Shown here: positions 12,938 through 19,794 of the stretch, piece after piece | How positions within the stretch are numbered: position 1 is the first letter of the stretch | Layout: each line of letters begins with the position of its first letter | Assembly (NCBI RefSeq): GCF_004791585.1 | Contig: NZ_SRUU01000018.1 | Coordinates: forward strand, 1-64,000 | Origin: Mesorhizobium sp. M1C.F.Ca.ET.210.01.1.1 | GTDB lineage: Bacteria > Pseudomonadota > Alphaproteobacteria > Rhizobiales > Rhizobiaceae | Length of the DNA: 64,000 nucleotides | Direction: 5' to 3' | Made by a program: the position numbers and the translations under genes | The notes under the pieces: model-generated | The model's input: only the letters and a program-made list of their open reading frames with translations | Database searches by the model: none | Told to the model about the DNA's origin: nothing

Positions 12938-12988
12938 GGACAGGGAGGCGGACCGGAGCCCCGCCGGAACCCATTGGAGGAGGACATT

Positions 12989-13330
12989 ATGTTTCGAAAA
13001 GTGAGCCTGGCCCTCGCGGCCACCTTGATCATGGCGGGCGCGGCATGGGCCGACCCGATCGAAGGCAATTGGAAGACACAGGCCGGCTCGACGGCGGCGA
13101 TCGCAGGCAGCGACTCGTTCTCGATCACGCTGAAGTCCGGCAAGTATTCCGGCAAGACGATCGGCTCCTTCAAGGCGGCCGGCGACAACAAATACACCGG
13201 CACCATAACCGACCCGGAAACCGACAAGACCTATTCCGGCAAGGCGACGCTTTCGGGCACCTCGCTCAAGATGAGCGGCTGCGTCTTTGGCGGACTGATC
13301 TGCAAGAGCCAGACCTGGCACAAGCTCTGA
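12989..13330 (+). CDS. DUF2147 periplasmic protein
   Basis: Start ATG 12989 follows a perfect GGAGGAGG. The 113-residue protein has a signal peptide (MFRKVSLALAATLIMAGAAWA) and a compact beta-rich DUF2147 domain beginning DPIEGNWKT and ending GCVFGGLICKSQTWHKL, the usual end of this family. The domain's function is not established; it is exported and lipocalin-like. The last 18 bases of the gene are the left copy of a direct repeat whose other copy lies 4.2 kb downstream. A terminator follows at 13354. Confidence 0.9.
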   Translation: MFRKVSLALAATLIMAGAAWADPIEGNWKTQAGSTAAIAGSDSFSITLKSGKYSGKTIGSFKAAGDNKYTGTITDPETDKTYSGKATLSGTSLKMSGCVFGGLICKSQTWHKL

Positions 13331-13332
13331 TC
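13315..13332 (+). repeat. Left copy of 18-bp direct repeat (att-like)
   Basis: CTGGCACAAGCTCTGATC, covering the final codons and stop of the DUF2147 gene, recurs exactly at 17514-17531. Each copy is followed by a terminator with nearly the same stem. The enclosed DNA is A/T-richer, so the pair may be integration-site duplications or the relic of a tandem paralogue. Confidence 0.65.
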
Positions 13333-13353
13333 AGCCAATACCAGATCGTCCGA

Positions 13354-13380
13354 AAAACGGGGCCCGAGCGGCCCCGTTTT
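13354..13380 (+). terminator. Intrinsic terminator of the DUF2147 gene
   Basis: Perfect stem AAAACGGGGCC (13354-13364) and GGCCCCGTTTT (13370-13380) with loop CGAGC, followed by C and T residues; placed 23 bases after the stop codon. Confidence 0.9.
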
Positions 13381-13382
13381 CT

Positions 13383-13748
13383 CAGTATTCTCGGTAGCCG
13401 CTCAGGTTCCGCATGGTTATGTTCCGTTATTTGCAGCTTTTCGCGGCCTTTGGCGGCAGCCTGAATGTAGCCCCATCCGGGCCAACCGAGGACCTCAGGC
13501 CCAAGCCCCATAACGGCACCGAGCGGTGGCGCCTCGCCCGCGTAATCGGCGTCTTAGCTTCGATACTGCGCTTTTCTTGATCGTGTTTTTGCGGCGACCA
13601 TGAGCCGCACGGCTTCGCCGCGATTGGACGGGCTAGTGTATTCCGCTTTTTGGGGGGTCTGGCACGACGACTTGATTGCTCAGAAGAATTTCATGGCGTA
13701 GGCTTTCAGAAATTTGCGCAGCCATTTCAAAGCGGAGGCGTCCGACAA
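13383..13748. other. Intergenic region at the left end of the A/T-rich island
   Basis: 366 bases in which I see no supported gene. Short frames on both strands lack ribosome sites. The last 20 bases carry the GGAGG site of the PIN-like gene. Composition drops towards that of the island from about 13560. Confidence 0.6.
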
Positions 13749-15032
13749 ATGAGTGGTACTCTGCGCAGCGTTTTCTATGGCCACTATTCCCTTACCGATG
13801 AGGAGCGGAAACGGCTCTGGAAAGAGGCTATTCTAGTTCCCGATACAAATTCCTTGCTATACCTCTTCAAGCTTATGCCGACGGCGCGAGACGAATTGCT
13901 GGCGGCTTTCAAGTCATTTAACGATCGACTGTGGCTGCCGCATCAGGTTGGTAGAGAATTCCATGAGCGCTGGCGATCAGCAGCGAAGTCAAACCGGGCC
14001 GAATACGAAAATCTCAAGGTCGAATTTCAAAAGAATAAAGGGAAACTCACTGCATCTCTTAACAACTTTAAGCGTTACCAGCCTTGGGAAGACAACGCGC
14101 TCATTGCCAAACTTCCCGAGCTTTTTGACAGTATCCTGAAGGAAGTAGATGGAGCCATAGCCAAACTGCCCGATCCTGAGACTACGTTCGAAGCTGTGGC
14201 GGCGCTGTTCGACGGCAAGGTAGCTTCGCGGCCTGAGGACTTGGCTTTGAGGACCAAGGAGGCTGAACGCCGACGGAAGGATAGAATTCCCCCCGGCTAT
14301 ATGGACGAAGGACCGGGAGATTATCTGATCTGGGCAGAGATGATGGAAAAGGCAAAGTCGGACAAGGTTCCGATCCTTCTCGTCACAGATGACCAAAAGG
14401 AGGATTGGTGGTGGAAAGATTCTCCGGATGATTTTATCGGCCCAAGATCAGAGCTGCGCTACGAATTTTTCGATCGAACTGGACAATCGTTTTACGCATA
14501 CAGGCCCGCGCATTTCCTCGCGCTTGTTCGCCAAAGCGACAGCGCTCTTGTCTCGGATGCGACTGTGCAAGAGATGCAAAGAGTGCAGAACAGGCGCTTG
14601 GTGTCGGCTTCATCGCTGCGTATCAGGTCCAAGATTAGGGAGTTATCTGAAGAAATCTTACTAAAGCCTGGAGCATCCGAAGAAACAATTCTGCCTTATG
14701 CGGCGGAAATCGCTACAACGTTAAACCTACTCGACCTCACCATTGCGGCGCGAGCGGAAGGAAAGATTACGGGGGACGACCCTAAATTGCTTCAAAAGCA
14801 TGCTGACGATCTGAAGTCTGATGCGCTTAGTGGTGTTTTATATTCCGATGATGGCGCGCTTGGTGCCTACAACCTTGCTAAATTCAACGACCTTATTAAC
14901 CTCCTACGTGATAGGGAGTACTGGAACGAGCTTGAGCACGTATTGAGTCGGCTTGCGTCGACGCGCGAACTTCGCGAACGGATGGACGAGGCACGCCAAT
15001 TGCGGGACTCGCAGGATCGGGGCACCTCCTGA
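13749..15032 (+). CDS. PIN-like domain (PIN_8 type) protein, putative nuclease
   Basis: ATG 13749 has GGAGG 10 bases upstream. The 427-residue protein carries a large PIN-like domain in about the first 260 residues: first acidic motif VPDTNSLLYLF, then LWLPHQVGREFHERW with the conserved Glu, and the C-terminal acidic motif LLVTDDQKEDWWW followed by GQSFYAYRPAHFLALV. This order and spacing match the PIN_8 group, predicted metal-dependent RNases often found in defence islands. The rest (about 280-427) is helical and charged, possibly an oligomerisation or partner-binding region. The first Asp and the TDD are all present, so it may be active. No antitoxin-like small gene precedes it. A hand count for 14101-14160 gives 27 G+C of 60, far below neighbours outside the island. 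Confidence 0.8.
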   Translation: MSGTLRSVFYGHYSLTDEERKRLWKEAILVPDTNSLLYLFKLMPTARDELLAAFKSFNDRLWLPHQVGREFHERWRSAAKSNRAEYENLKVEFQKNKGKLTASLNNFKRYQPWEDNALIAKLPELFDSILKEVDGAIAKLPDPETTFEAVAALFDGKVASRPEDLALRTKEAERRRKDRIPPGYMDEGPGDYLIWAEMMEKAKSDKVPILLVTDDQKEDWWWKDSPDDFIGPRSELRYEFFDRTGQSFYAYRPAHFLALVRQSDSALVSDATVQEMQRVQNRRLVSASSLRIRSKIRELSEEILLKPGASEETILPYAAEIATTLNLLDLTIAARAEGKITGDDPKLLQKHADDLKSDALSGVLYSDDGALGAYNLAKFNDLINLLRDREYWNELEHVLSRLASTRELRERMDEARQLRDSQDRGTS

Positions 15033-15089
15033 GCGTATCCAATTGCCGGGCTGCGCATCCTTCAGACACTTCCCCACGACGCTGGGCAG

Positions 15090-15336
15090 GTGGCCGGCAT
15101 CCGCTGCGCCCGGTGTAGCGTAACGCGCTGCTACAAGCCTACAGAGCTTCGAGAGGTGATTGGGAACGTCACGATTGATGAGGTTCGAGACAAGGTACGC
15201 TGCCAAGGATGCAAAAGCAGGCAGTGGATGAGCGCCCAGCTTTTTCATCCCACGGGAGAGCAGGGCGCACACCATCCGCTACAGACGCCTCGTGGAAATC
15301 CGCTGGGAGAAGCGCGTAATCTGGCGGGACGAATAG
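15090..15336 (+). pseudogene. Frameshifted zinc-ribbon protein gene
   Basis: From GTG 15090 the frame encodes IRCARCSVTRCYKPTEL and KVRCQGCKSRQ, two CxxC knuckles of a small zinc ribbon. Past about 15255 this frame loses similarity, while the +1 frame continues with RYRRLVEIRWEKRVIWRDE and a TAG at 15334-15336. That tail is what I expect of the small Rhizobiales proteins that combine this ribbon with a Val-Ile-Trp-Arg-Asp ending. I read it as one gene broken by a single-base shift, probably also shortened at its start, because the frame opens directly at the PIN gene's stop. Found 58 bases after that gene. Confidence 0.5.
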
Positions 15337-15417
15337 CGGGAGTAATCGGCGTAAGTGGATAAGTTGCCCAGGTCGCACCGAGGCTGCTGCGGAAAATCCA
15401 GCGAAGAATGACCTATG

Positions 15418-15504
15418 CTACTCTATGGCTGCGGCAACCGCAGGTATCGTCGGACCGACTACTAAAGCGAAGAAAGTGACTGCTATCGCTATCAATCTTC
15501 TCAT
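15418..15504 (-). CDS. Tiny signal-peptide-like open frame, probable gene remnant
   Basis: A 28-codon frame starts at ATG 15504, preceded on the minus strand by a strong GGAGGAG at about 5 bases. It reads MRRLIAIAVTFFALVVG, then PTIPAVAAAIE and TAG: basic start, hydrophobic core and an AVA-type cleavage site, with almost no mature part. It is either the 5' end of a truncated secreted-protein gene or a very small peptide. Nothing in the following bases restores a longer frame. Confidence 0.35.
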   Translation of the reverse strand: MRRLIAIAVTFFALVVGPTIPAVAAAIE

Positions 15505-15658
15505 TTTCTCCTCCAAGACACGGACGCGTTGAAAGTGAGACCACAACAGCAAATGCGATAAGTAGCATTCCGACATCAGAGACGGCAATTATCAAGCTCG
15601 CGGGTGCTATGCGCACACAGACTGGTAAGACACTCGCGAATGGCGTTTGCAAATATTG

Positions 15659-16363
15659 TCAAACGGCCTCATTCGGCCCGTGATTGTGATAGCGGGCCTT
15701 CTCGGGCCCAATTATGAAGTTGGGTCCCGGCAATCTGCTAGCAACGTTGTATCGATGACAGAACTCTGTGTGGCGCCTCTCGTCGTCAAAGCCATCATTG
15801 TACCAAATGCAGCCCCAAACATAGATATACGTTTTCGTGCCCCTGGCCGGTTTTTCAGGAGGCGGGGCACCTTCATCTGCCCCTCTGCGAACGACCGCTC
15901 CCGGGTGGACGGTGCCTATATTTTCTGCGGTGTCTTCATCGACCGGGAAGTCCGCAAGATCCCGATCTGCCGAAACTCGCATTTTCACAACCATTTTGAC
16001 CTTGGTTGCAAAAACTTGCCCTACATTTTGAAGTGCGATCTGTCCAATAATGCGCGGCTCGACCCGCTTCATCCGATGGACCCCTGCGGGGGCAACGCTT
16101 AGGTATGCTCGCAATTCCTTCCTACTGGTGCTCTCGCTTTGAATAAGCGCGCGAGTGGCCGTGCGGTTGGCAGCAATAGATATGACCAGTGTGGCTATGA
16201 GACCGCCGAGGCCCGCCACCGACACCCCAAGCTGCCACCAAGCCGCCGTCGCCATTGATCGGTCGGCATCAGTCTCCTCCGCAAGGAGCGGTGCAATCCC
16301 CGCGCCGATAACAAATGATGCACACGTAAAGGCGAATGCACTCCGCCGAATCCAGCCAAACAT
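15659..16363 (-). CDS. Membrane-anchored protein of unknown function
   Basis: A 234-residue protein. It begins with a signal-like hydrophobic segment (about 8-28), followed by a second membrane helix (WWQLGVSVAGLGGLIATLVISI, about 42-65, written here in two parts by function: anchor and exit), then an extended soluble domain from about residue 70 (AYLSVAPAG, IALQNVGQVFATKVKM). This layout, two N-terminal helices plus a beta-rich domain, is typical of hypothetical proteins on rhizobial mobile DNA; I cannot name a function. It is divergent from the ClpP-like gene, with only 18 bases between the longest frames. Confidence 0.7.
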   Translation of the reverse strand: MFGWIRRSAFAFTCASFVIGAGIAPLLAEETDADRSMATAAWWQLGVSVAGLGGLIATLVISIAANRTATRALIQSESTSRKELRAYLSVAPAGVHRMKRVEPRIIGQIALQNVGQVFATKVKMVVKMRVSADRDLADFPVDEDTAENIGTVHPGAVVRRGADEGAPPPEKPARGTKTYIYVWGCIWYNDGFDDERRHTEFCHRYNVASRLPGPNFIIGPEKARYHNHGPNEAV

Positions 16364-16381
16364 TTCGGTGCCCCTCGATGT

Positions 16382-17320
16382 GTGCCCAAATTAACCCGAA
16401 CTCAAACAAGACCCTTGAAATACCCCGTTCACAGGTTCTTACTTGCAGTGGGTGTGGTGGGGCTCTGTCAGCTCGTGCGAATAGTTTCTCTAGTTCTGGC
16501 AGTTGGGTCAATTGTCGCGGCAGCGACATGTCAAGTTGCTGCTCTAGAGTACACTCCTGTGTCCTCCCCAGGTGAGCAGCCAGTCCTTGTGGTCTCCGGT
16601 GAATTTGGCGCCAATGAGCCCCTGAACGCCTTTAGCAACGCGGTTGTGAGCAGCGGGGCCAGGGTAATCGTATTCAACTCCCCCGGCGGCAACGTCGGCA
16701 CTGCAATACAGCTGGGACGCATGATCCGTGCGGCTGGATTGGACACCCTTCAGGTTCGCCAATTGCAATGCGCCTCTGCTTGCTCATTGGCCTTCTTAGG
16801 TGGCGTCCGCCGCGTTGCCGAGACGGGCTCCATTGGCGTCCACAGGGCGTCATTCGATACGAATAGCGGAATGTCCGCCGACGAGGCAGTGGCGCAAATC
16901 CAGGCCGGAACCGCCCAGGTCATGTCCTACATGACGGAAATGGGAGTAGACCCCAAACTCATGCAGGTGGCCTTGAGCTACGATAGGTCCGACATGCGGT
17001 ACCTATCGGCCAGCGAAATGGCCGAACTGCGGGTGACCAATGTAGCAGTGAGCCTACCGCCGGTAGATACGTCCCTGCTGCCGCCGAGGCCCAATACTGC
17101 GCCAAAGAAAAGCACTACATCGCAAGAGACGCAGAACCCAGCGCCGGTCGTCCGTGCCAAGCCGAGCCGTGAACAACGCGAGGCAGCCGATCCAGGACCG
17201 GCGCCGAAATCAAAAACGGCGGCGCGAAAGTCCAGATATCGCACCTGCAGCGGCATTGACGGCACCTTTGAGGTTCCCGCGTCCCAGAGATGTCCGCTGA
17301 GCGGCTACGCGCATTATTGA
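16382..17320 (+). CDS. Periplasmic ClpP/crotonase-fold serine protease-like protein
   Basis: The open frame starts at GTG 16382; GTG 16475 is a plausible alternative because it would place the signal peptide (MRIVSLVLAVGSIVAAAT) at the N-terminus and leave room for divergent promoters. The mature domain has a ClpP-like fold: VIVFNSPGGNVGTAIQLG, then CASACSLAFLGGVRR with the presumed nucleophile Ser, and GSIGVHRASF with the His. This is the arrangement of COG3904-type predicted periplasmic proteases. The C-terminal 80 residues are Pro/Ala/Lys-rich, ending in a short Cys pair (RTCSGIDG, SQRCPLSG). Substrates are unknown. It belongs to the A/T-rich island. Confidence 0.75.
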   Translation: MPKLTRTQTRPLKYPVHRFLLAVGVVGLCQLVRIVSLVLAVGSIVAAATCQVAALEYTPVSSPGEQPVLVVSGEFGANEPLNAFSNAVVSSGARVIVFNSPGGNVGTAIQLGRMIRAAGLDTLQVRQLQCASACSLAFLGGVRRVAETGSIGVHRASFDTNSGMSADEAVAQIQAGTAQVMSYMTEMGVDPKLMQVALSYDRSDMRYLSASEMAELRVTNVAVSLPPVDTSLLPPRPNTAPKKSTTSQETQNPAPVVRAKPSREQREAADPGPAPKSKTAARKSRYRTCSGIDGTFEVPASQRCPLSGYAHY

Positions 17321-17513
17321 TGGGCATTCGACAGCAGGGGACCTGCGACCAAAATTGCAAGAAATCTGTGTCGGCATTTCCGTATAGGACAAGAGCCGAT
17401 TTCCCCCCGTGGCCCTCAGAGAAACTCGTCGGCCCTATCCCGCAATACTAACGGACGGGAACGAGCCCCGTTGCATCGTACTCCTCGTACAATCTGCAAA
17501 ATAGAAGCTTTAT

Positions 17514-17531
17514 CTGGCACAAGCTCTGATC
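17514..17531 (+). repeat. Right copy of 18-bp direct repeat (att-like)
   Basis: Exact copy of 13315-13332. Here the upstream frame would read LQNRSFIWHKL then stop, so only the WHKL end of a DUF2147 gene is kept. The 8 bases ATCTGCAA a little further upstream are also shared with the left side, at slightly different spacing. Confidence 0.65.
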
Positions 17532-17550
17532 GGGCTCAAATGATGGGATG

Positions 17551-17573
17551 AACGGGGCCCGCGCGGCCCCGTT
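17551..17573 (+). terminator. Intrinsic terminator, relative of the one at 13354
   Basis: Stem AACGGGGCC (17551-17559) and GGCCCCGTT (17565-17573), loop CGCGC, followed by TTCTTTT. The stem core equals that after the DUF2147 gene, though no complete gene now ends just upstream. Confidence 0.8.
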
Positions 17574-17583
17574 TTCTTTTCGA

Positions 17584-18291: not shown

Positions 18292-19794
18292 ATGGAAAAG
18301 CGAATCTACCCACAAGCCATCGAATCGGTCGTCATGCCGGAGCCTTTCGGCAGGCAGAGCTTCCACGACGCCAAAAAAGCGGTCGCGACGCTGCAGATGC
18401 TCTACGACCGCAACACCAAGTTCCTGCGCGACTCCTTCGCCAAGCTTGCCGCAGGCGGCGACGAGAGCAAGCGCTACCGCGCCTTCTACCCGCAGATCGG
18501 CGTCACCACGACCTCGTTCACCCAGATCGACTCGCGCCAGGCCTACGGCCATATGCCGACGCCCGGGCACTTCGCCACCACCATCACCCAGCCGCAGCTG
18601 TTCGAGAACTATCTCGTCGAGCAGCTGCGGCTCATCATGCGCAATCACGGCGTGCAGGTGACGGTGTCGGAATCGACGACGCCGATCCCGCTGCATTTCG
18701 CCTTCCTGGAAGGCACCTATGTCGACGGGACGGCCGCCGAGCGCATCAAGCGGCCGATCCGCGACCTGTTCGACGTGCCGGACCTCGACGGCACCGACGA
18801 CCAGATCGCCAACGGCACCTTCGAAGTCGCGTTCGGCGAGCCAAGGCCGCTGGCGCCGTTCACCGCGCAGCGCATCGACTATTCGCTGCACCGCATGTCG
18901 CATTACACGGCGACCAGCCCGCAGCATTTCCAGAATTTCGTGCTGTTCACCAACTACCAGTTCTATATCGACGAGTTCGTCGCCCGGGCCCGCGACCTGA
19001 TGGAGAAGGGCGGAGGCGGCTACACCGAATTCATCGAACCGGGCAATGTGGTGACAAAGGCGGGAGCCAATGCGGCGAGTGAAGGCACGCCGCCTGCGCG
19101 CCTGCCGCAGATGCCCGCCTATCACCTGAAGAAGCCCGGCCACGGCGGCATCACCATGGTCAATATCGGCGTCGGCCCCTCCAACGCCAAGACCATCACC
19201 GACCATATCGCGGTGCTGAGGCCGCATGCCTGGGTGATGCTCGGCCACTGCGCGGGCCTGCGCAACACGCAGGCGCTGGGCGACTATGTGCTGGCGCATG
19301 CCTATGTGCGCGAGGACCATGTGCTGGACGACGACCTGCCGGTCTGGGTGCCGATCCCGCCGCTGGCCGAGATCCAGGTGGCGCTGCAGGAAGCGGTCGC
19401 CGAAGTGACCGGACTTTCCGGCTATGACCTCAAGCGCATCATGCGCACCGGCACCGTCGCCACCATCGACAACCGCAACTGGGAACTGCGCGACCAGCGC
19501 GGACCGGTGCAGCGCCTGTCGCAGTCCCGCGCCATCGCGCTCGACATGGAATCGGCGACGATCGCGGCCAACGGCTTCCGCTTCCGCGTGCCTTACGGCA
19601 CGCTCCTCTGTGTCTCCGACAAGCCGCTGCATGGCGAGTTGAAGCTGCCCGGCATGGCGACCGAGTTCTACAAGCGGCAGGTGGCCCAGCATCTCACCAT
19701 CGGCATCAGGGCGATGGAGAAGCTGGCCGATATGCCGATGGAACGACTGCACTCGCGCAAGCTGAGAAGTTTTTCCGAAACGGCCTTCCAGTAG
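18292..19794 (+). CDS. amn: AMP nucleosidase
   Basis: 500 residues from ATG 18292, a normal length for bacterial AMP nucleosidase. The N-terminal regulatory domain covers about the first 190 residues (with RYRAFYPQIGV and GHMPTPGHFATTITQP). The catalytic nucleoside-phosphorylase fold follows, with GHGGITMVNIGVGPSNAKTI split around residue 285, HAWVMLGHCAGLR, and the acid AIALDMESATIAANG near the C-terminus. It hydrolyses AMP to adenine and ribose 5-phosphate and is usually activated by ATP and inhibited by phosphate, balancing the adenylate pool. The longer upstream frame lacks a ribosome site. Confidence 0.95.
   Translation: MEKRIYPQAIESVVMPEPFGRQSFHDAKKAVATLQMLYDRNTKFLRDSFAKLAAGGDESKRYRAFYPQIGVTTTSFTQIDSRQAYGHMPTPGHFATTITQPQLFENYLVEQLRLIMRNHGVQVTVSESTTPIPLHFAFLEGTYVDGTAAERIKRPIRDLFDVPDLDGTDDQIANGTFEVAFGEPRPLAPFTAQRIDYSLHRMSHYTATSPQHFQNFVLFTNYQFYIDEFVARARDLMEKGGGGYTEFIEPGNVVTKAGANAASEGTPPARLPQMPAYHLKKPGHGGITMVNIGVGPSNAKTITDHIAVLRPHAWVMLGHCAGLRNTQALGDYVLAHAYVREDHVLDDDLPVWVPIPPLAEIQVALQEAVAEVTGLSGYDLKRIMRTGTVATIDNRNWELRDQRGPVQRLSQSRAIALDMESATIAANGFRFRVPYGTLLCVSDKPLHGELKLPGMATEFYKRQVAQHLTIGIRAMEKLADMPMERLHSRKLRSFSETAFQ

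Follow-up and report, generated by a model that had tools for sequence, protein, structure and literature searches.

The window analysed here is a 64,000-nt stretch of Mesorhizobium sp. M1C.F.Ca.ET.210.01.1.1 (contig NZ_SRUU01000018.1). Between its DUF2147 gene and amn lies an insert that encodes a PIN_8 nuclease-like protein, a broken zinc-ribbon gene, a membrane-like protein and an exported ClpP-like protein (Table 1). The 3′ end of DUF2147 carries CTGGCACAAGCTCTGATC, an 18-bp direct repeat whose second, identical copy stands at the other end of the insert. A 27-nt terminator follows each copy, with 96% identity between the two and a spacing of 4195. The exact repeat and the near-identical twin terminators had both been described in a first-pass annotation of this DNA, and both are confirmed. 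About 0.08 exact 18-bp pairs are expected by composition in 64 kb. The window contains three further exact repeats of at least 18 bp, so the duplication of CTGGCACAAGCTCTGATC is by itself weak evidence.

The insert (4131 bp) has a G+C content of 55.2%; the window as a whole has 64.0%, and the lowest value of any 4131-bp stretch outside it is 60.9% when sampled in 100-bp steps. Its tetranucleotide distance is 0.415, and none of 259 other stretches exceeds 0.195. The composition of the insert is foreign. This agrees with the A/T-rich interior noticed earlier, for which a hand count of 27/60 G+C at 14101-14160 was reproduced, and an interior of normal composition, which would have spoken against an island, is not what we found.

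Table 1. Features of the DUF2147-amn locus, with positions in the window. Genomes of the congener sample are given by their handles (G numbers).
Feature	Position	Strand	Basis
DUF2147, intact target gene	12989..13330	+	PF09917, E 5.7e-14
Left repeat copy, native DUF2147 3′ end, apparently intact attB half	13315..13332	+	Same end type in empty congeners
Left spacer and terminator, clade-B type	13333..13382	+	Scores G084 39, G086 37; G086 88%
Foreign low-G+C insert, probable LSR-island relic	13383..17513	.	Composition; enlarged gap in 10/142 genomes including the window
PIN_8 nuclease-like protein, 427 aa	13749..15032	+	PF18476
Frame-shifted zinc-ribbon gene	15090..15362	+	Comparison with intact 105-aa relative in G077
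Membrane-like protein, 234 aa	15659..16363	-	62-66% relative in G143
Exported ClpP-like protein, 281 aa	16475..17320	+	Relative at same site in G135; PHROG protease matches
Putative LSR-island right end with 44-bp P arm (17470-17513)	17356..17513	+	G127 island-end match
Right repeat copy, putative attR, P arm joined to native DUF2147 end	17514..17531	+	Layout as in seven LSR genomes and G024
Right spacer and terminator, clade-A (own) type	17532..17577	+	Best scores G139 32, G047 29.5
amn (AMP nucleosidase), right flank	18292..19794	+	PF10423, E 1.3e-51; 96% DNA to G047

The PIN-like protein recognised in the first reading carries a complete PIN_8 domain (E 1.6e-44; 153 bits against the curated 26.1; profile positions 1-227 of 227). 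Among 394 sampled family genomes, 8 have relatives with E ≤ 1e-10, the window's own genome counted. This is a minimum for the group, since G075, which carries a 56% relative at another location, is not among these matches. Relatives are also present in 38 of 72,556 plasmid records, each below 60% identity, and no close plasmid source was found among these records. Among the matches listed, the literature on PIN_8 consisted of plant auxin papers. A phage-defence role for the protein would be a guess by analogy, and PADLOC matched none of four window proteins to a known defence system. The zinc-ribbon gene had been called broken, and it is indeed frame-shifted relative to the intact G077 gene. 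Its closer relatives are located elsewhere in the congeners, and weak relatives (29-31%) are found in the islands of G127 and G090 that are described below. The intact gene of G077 adjoins a relative of the ClpP-like gene. In the window, the PIN_8 and zinc-ribbon genes may have come in with the ClpP-like gene or separately from it. The membrane-like protein is unmatched in Pfam, NCBIfam and PHROGs, and its relative in G143 is split into two pieces in different frames. A further 56-aa minus-strand frame is unmatched in Pfam and in the island loci.

Two PHROG protease matches (E 1.3e-5 and 1.7e-5) agree with the earlier ClpP-like assignment; the protein is unmatched in Pfam and NCBIfam and its predicted fold is unusable (mean pLDDT 47.8). 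A sequence search of the PDB gave one weak match (E 0.78). The relative that G135 carries at the DUF2147 site shares 84% DNA identity over 719 nt; relatives at 89% are found elsewhere in G077 and G098, and the window's own genome has a second relative on another contig. The whole insert, or its left third, was found at the DUF2147 site in none of the other congeners of the 146-genome sample. A search with the left 378 bp of the insert produced, apart from the self-match, just short matches (about 19-47 bp) at E 0.001 or worse; at E ≤ 0.1 there were matches in 56 of the 146 genomes, the window's own counted. We judged the short matches to be chance and did not take them as relatives.

We compared the locus across 146 genomes of the genus, including the window's own 6.8-Mb genome. 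The left-flank query, which consists of the upstream gene and DUF2147, was found in 145 genomes, with some distant ones matching its first part alone. A match to amn was also found in 145, in one case as weak as E 8e-4. Both flanks are on one contig in 142 genomes, which form the gap survey; G122 (left flank unmatched), G033 (amn unmatched), and G090 and G073 (two contigs) were left out. Each gap was counted from where the left-flank match begins up to amn and was called enlarged above 2.3 kb, a limit of our own choice. The gap is enlarged in 10 of the 142 genomes, the window among them, and not enlarged in the other 132. Most of the latter (126, with G018 shortened by a contig edge) have gaps of 0.9-1.9 kb. 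The remaining six, at 2.17-2.21 kb, are distant small genomes with a DUF2147 relative of 46-53%, and matches to the LSR described below and to the insert proteins are absent from their gaps. The comparison with congeners suggested earlier thus found genomes with a single site and no insert. With 132 of 142 gaps not enlarged and an insert of foreign composition, it is hardly conceivable that the gene order of the window is ancestral and was lost in its relatives.

A large serine recombinase (LSR) with E ≤ 1e-60 is present in eight of the 146 genomes. In seven of them (G127, G119, G118, G115, G080, G081, and G090) a gene of about 500 aa lies directly behind DUF2147; the eighth, G129, has only a fragment at another location. 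In the six LSR genomes whose two flanks share a contig, the islands measure 7.7-18.7 kb, and in G090 the LSR and attR are on separate contigs. All seven full LSRs have Recombinase and Zn_ribbon_recom domains, and two have an N-terminal resolvase domain within the 0.001 limit. The LSR of G127 is the most divergent of the seven, with 66-68% to that of G118. The order in an intact island is DUF2147, attL, LSR gene, cargo, attR, native terminator, amn. At the left end, DUF2147 changes at CTGG to an end supplied by the island, behind which come an inverted repeat and the LSR start. At the right end, an arm is followed by CTGGCACAAGCTCTGATC and then by the native terminator. These comparisons support the 3′ end of DUF2147 as the integration site of an LSR island family. 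The enlarged gap of G066 is different: it contains ORFs that look P450-like and glycosyltransferase-like by eye and has no LSR match, and it was counted as enlarged and excluded from the family.

The cargo of the islands was scanned with PADLOC for chosen ORFs from four of the seven islands, with G080, G081, and G090 outside the scan. The G127 island carries a CBASS cyclase and 2TM effector. Type I restriction-modification proteins were found in the islands of G119 (M, S, and R), G118 (M and R), and G115 (M), and two large cargo proteins of G119, one HSP70-like and one peptidoglycan-binding, have no PADLOC match. The islands point to the 3′ end of DUF2147 as a place in Mesorhizobium where LSR elements land repeatedly, with variable cargo, part of which is phage defence. 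Natural attB, attL, and attR candidates from several species come with it.

The right end of the insert resembles the right end of one of these islands. For the terminal 170 bp at the right of the G127 island, the top match in the 64 kb is at 17356-17500 (69%, E 1.1e-7), and the runner-up has E 1.2. Within the P arm, 31 of 44 positions are identical between G127 and the window, compared with 23 of 44 at the next best place, and shuffling the arm 20000 times never gave 31. The island end of G090 also matches part of the window's right end (E 0.001). A model built from eight arms matches the window at 17477-17510 (E 0.0033). When G127 is removed, the model ranks the window site second at E 5.9 and misses the G127 arm, while the leave-one-out control recovers all seven other arms at E 2.3e-10 or better. 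Ungapped, the window arm is identical to these seven at 20-24 of 44 positions, which is the background level. Because the window match vanishes from the model without G127, our assignment of the right end is taken from the direct comparison with G127 alone. The best reading of the right repeat copy is as an attR of the LSR island family at the DUF2147 3′ end, and, as the match is limited to G127, the window and G127 elements would belong to one sub-type.

The right end also bears on two other explanations. Tyrosine-integrase islands typically show an exact short repeat and restore the gene end, so the insert might be an island of that kind with an 18-bp core, which brought its own gene end and terminator and later lost its integrase. 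We consider this quite improbable: the right end matches the LSR island of G127, the recombinase is an LSR in all seven genomes with an identified recombinase at the site, and the five insert ORFs searched in Pfam include no tyrosine integrase. The other explanation is one of two models offered by the first-pass annotation, in which the body of a tandem DUF2147 paralogue was replaced. It would leave foreign DNA before the second repeat copy and a terminator after it, as is seen here, but the sequence before that copy corresponds to an island end. In addition, tblastn finds one DUF2147 match per locus in all 38 empty-site loci and in 18 of 20 further loci, with none in the other two, and we consider the paralogue model very improbable. 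The competing model, site-specific insertion into the gene's 3′ end, gains from the empty sites and full recombinase islands among the congeners and from the G127 right-end match. The lack of an integrase had been raised as a weakness of insertion. The window has no LSR match, in line with that observation, but the objection loses its force because in the relatives the LSR adjoins the left end, the part that appears to have been lost in the window.

The left end of the window differs from that of an intact island. An HMM of the attL arm found nothing better than E 5.2 over the window; in leave-one-out positive controls the same kind of model recovered the arms of G127 (3.4e-9) and G135 (1.3e-11). 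The attL arm, unlike the P arm, is similar between G127 and the other islands. The LSR gene is unmatched in the window and in the whole of its own genome. Since attL and the LSR were both tested for and both are missing, we filed the insert as a relic and not as an intact member of the family. Judged by its sequence, the left repeat is an intact gene end followed by a terminator of another clade's type, with no island end.

For the clade assignment we placed 10 of the 38 empty-site genomes into group A and 13 into group B; the site comparison excluded the other 15. Group B was chosen partly by spacer similarity to the left copy, and a tree of the upstream sequence backs A and B as clades. In the tree of the 830 bp ending with DUF2147, the window is inside clade A with support 100/99. 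Within DUF2147, 15 of 16 informative sites at 13000-13221 are of clade A. Further along the gene, 13255 and 13259 are B-type and 13288 and 13294 are neither. In the left spacer (13336-13350), eight of nine informative sites are B-type and one is neither. The right spacer scores 20.5 with both G084 and G086, the two genomes that score highest with the left one. The two terminators thus belong to two different Mesorhizobium clades, a point that the first-pass annotation had missed. Upstream of DUF2147, at 12944-12984, 9 of 11 informative sites are B-type, so the mixing of A and B extends beyond the junction. Some recombination with clade-B DNA seems to be needed, which may have overwritten attL and the LSR, carried PIN_8 in with it, or taken place through a circle.

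In a variant account of the relic's left end, the mixture would come from a single crossover. A clade-B segment from attB to attR would leave as a circle (P-core-Y_B) and enter a clade-A attB at the 18-bp core, which would place the B terminator on the left and the P arm on the right. The exact core and the change from A-type gene sites (15 of 16 at 13000-13221) to B-type spacer sites (8 of 9) agree with this reading. However, it requires a donor of the same structure and none was seen, and to our knowledge strict LSRs do not recombine attR-type with attB sites. The B-type bases at 13255 and 13259 hint at an A-to-B switch upstream of the core, and this hint is weak because G075, a clade-A genome, has the window's base at 13255. 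On balance we regard entry as a circle as unlikely.

We consider it likely that the insert is a decayed, immobilised relic of the LSR islands that use the DUF2147 3′ end as their integration site. Two other genomes support the presence of relics at this site. G135 keeps an attL arm there, with no LSR match and no attR, and G024 retains both arms and a 46-residue scrap of the LSR. Compared with these, the window is, as far as its sequence tells, one of three relics at the DUF2147 site. In the history that we propose, an LSR island would have integrated at the DUF2147 3′ end of the window's clade-A ancestor. Recombination with clade-B DNA, within or close to that 3′ end, would then have overwritten the island end with attL and the LSR. 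The outer joint of this exchange may have been non-homologous, or the donor may have had a prior insert behind its terminator. The cargo, including the PIN_8 and ClpP-like genes, would have been kept, normal excision between attL and attR should fail, and an apparently complete attB would have been restored at the left copy. We think that overwriting of the left end by clade-B DNA in this manner is about equally likely to be right or wrong.

With the recombinase and one end gone, the cargo is probably stranded in the chromosome, and the landing site looks open again, as the left site has the appearance of a complete attB. The clade-specific terminators of the window would indicate that DNA of the other clade took the place of one island end, a possible route to cargo fixation. 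In a wider form of this idea, importing an empty-site allele from another species would both lock the cargo of an LSR island and rebuild attB; we put it forward tentatively and find it somewhat doubtful. If true, an integration hotspot would gain permanent cargo yet stay open to the next island. The SCC elements of staphylococci, the best-known parallel, are LSR islands in the 3′ end of a gene whose end is kept in direct repeats, and SCC copies without the recombinase exist as stranded relics. By analogy, the islands described here would resemble SCC in their location at a gene 3′ end and in their relics, and they differ in host and target.

We found no paper that names the DUF2147 3′ end as an integration site, in a search that covered main texts and few subscription journals. 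The matches for DUF2147 together with integration concern other subjects, as judged by their titles and the beginnings of their abstracts. Site-specific islands of the same genus are known from the ICEs and IMEs of Mesorhizobium (PMC8627217), and DUF2147 is unnamed in the main text of that paper. It is likewise unnamed in the main text of a survey of LSR integrative elements (PMC10083194). The elements described in that text appear to share with the present islands a terminal LSR gene, attB/attP sites, and a preferred target gene; here the target is the DUF2147 3′ end, and the copy in the window is without LSR and attL. According to the same text, the target genes of LSRs are enriched in DNA competence genes (PMC10083194), and two relatives of the LSR studied here sit inside a gene that we read by eye as dprA. 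Our scan of named genomes for the LSR gave two loci, one of them in Mesorhizobium sp. M7A.T.Ca.US.000.02.2.1.

Relatives of the large serine recombinase (LSR) are present in or beside dprA-like genes, whose identity was read by eye, at loci L112:4416-5072 and L084:10001-11545. In the congener G129, a fragment of such a relative is followed by an insertion-sequence-like ORF, and a Rhizobium MAG carries a full-length relative gene with 41% identity. A competence gene may be a second target of the LSR family. The DUF2147-amn gap itself is enlarged in a different way in G066 (L057), where it contains ORFs that, read by eye, resemble P450 and glycosyltransferase genes; an LSR match was looked for in this enlarged gap and none was found.

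In G077, one of the two closest relatives of the window's ClpP-like gene (89% at the DNA level) is found outside the DUF2147 site and is immediately preceded by a zinc-ribbon gene that is intact; an additional zinc-ribbon copy lies about 5 kb further on (L031:1121-2430, L116:9600-15431). The C-terminal end of the window's ClpP-like gene (17217-17320) has numerous short matches at other places in congener genomes, the pattern expected of a shared tail domain.

Directly 5' of DUF2147, positions 12944-12984 are of clade-B type at 9 of the 11 clade-informative bases; the gene itself is of clade-A type. Besides the island-site pair, the window contains three exact repeats of at least 18 bp.

Further exact repeats in the window
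Feature	First copy	Second copy
Exact repeat, at least 18 bp	21780	21857
Exact repeat, at least 18 bp	37526	39071
Exact repeat, at least 18 bp	45785	54258
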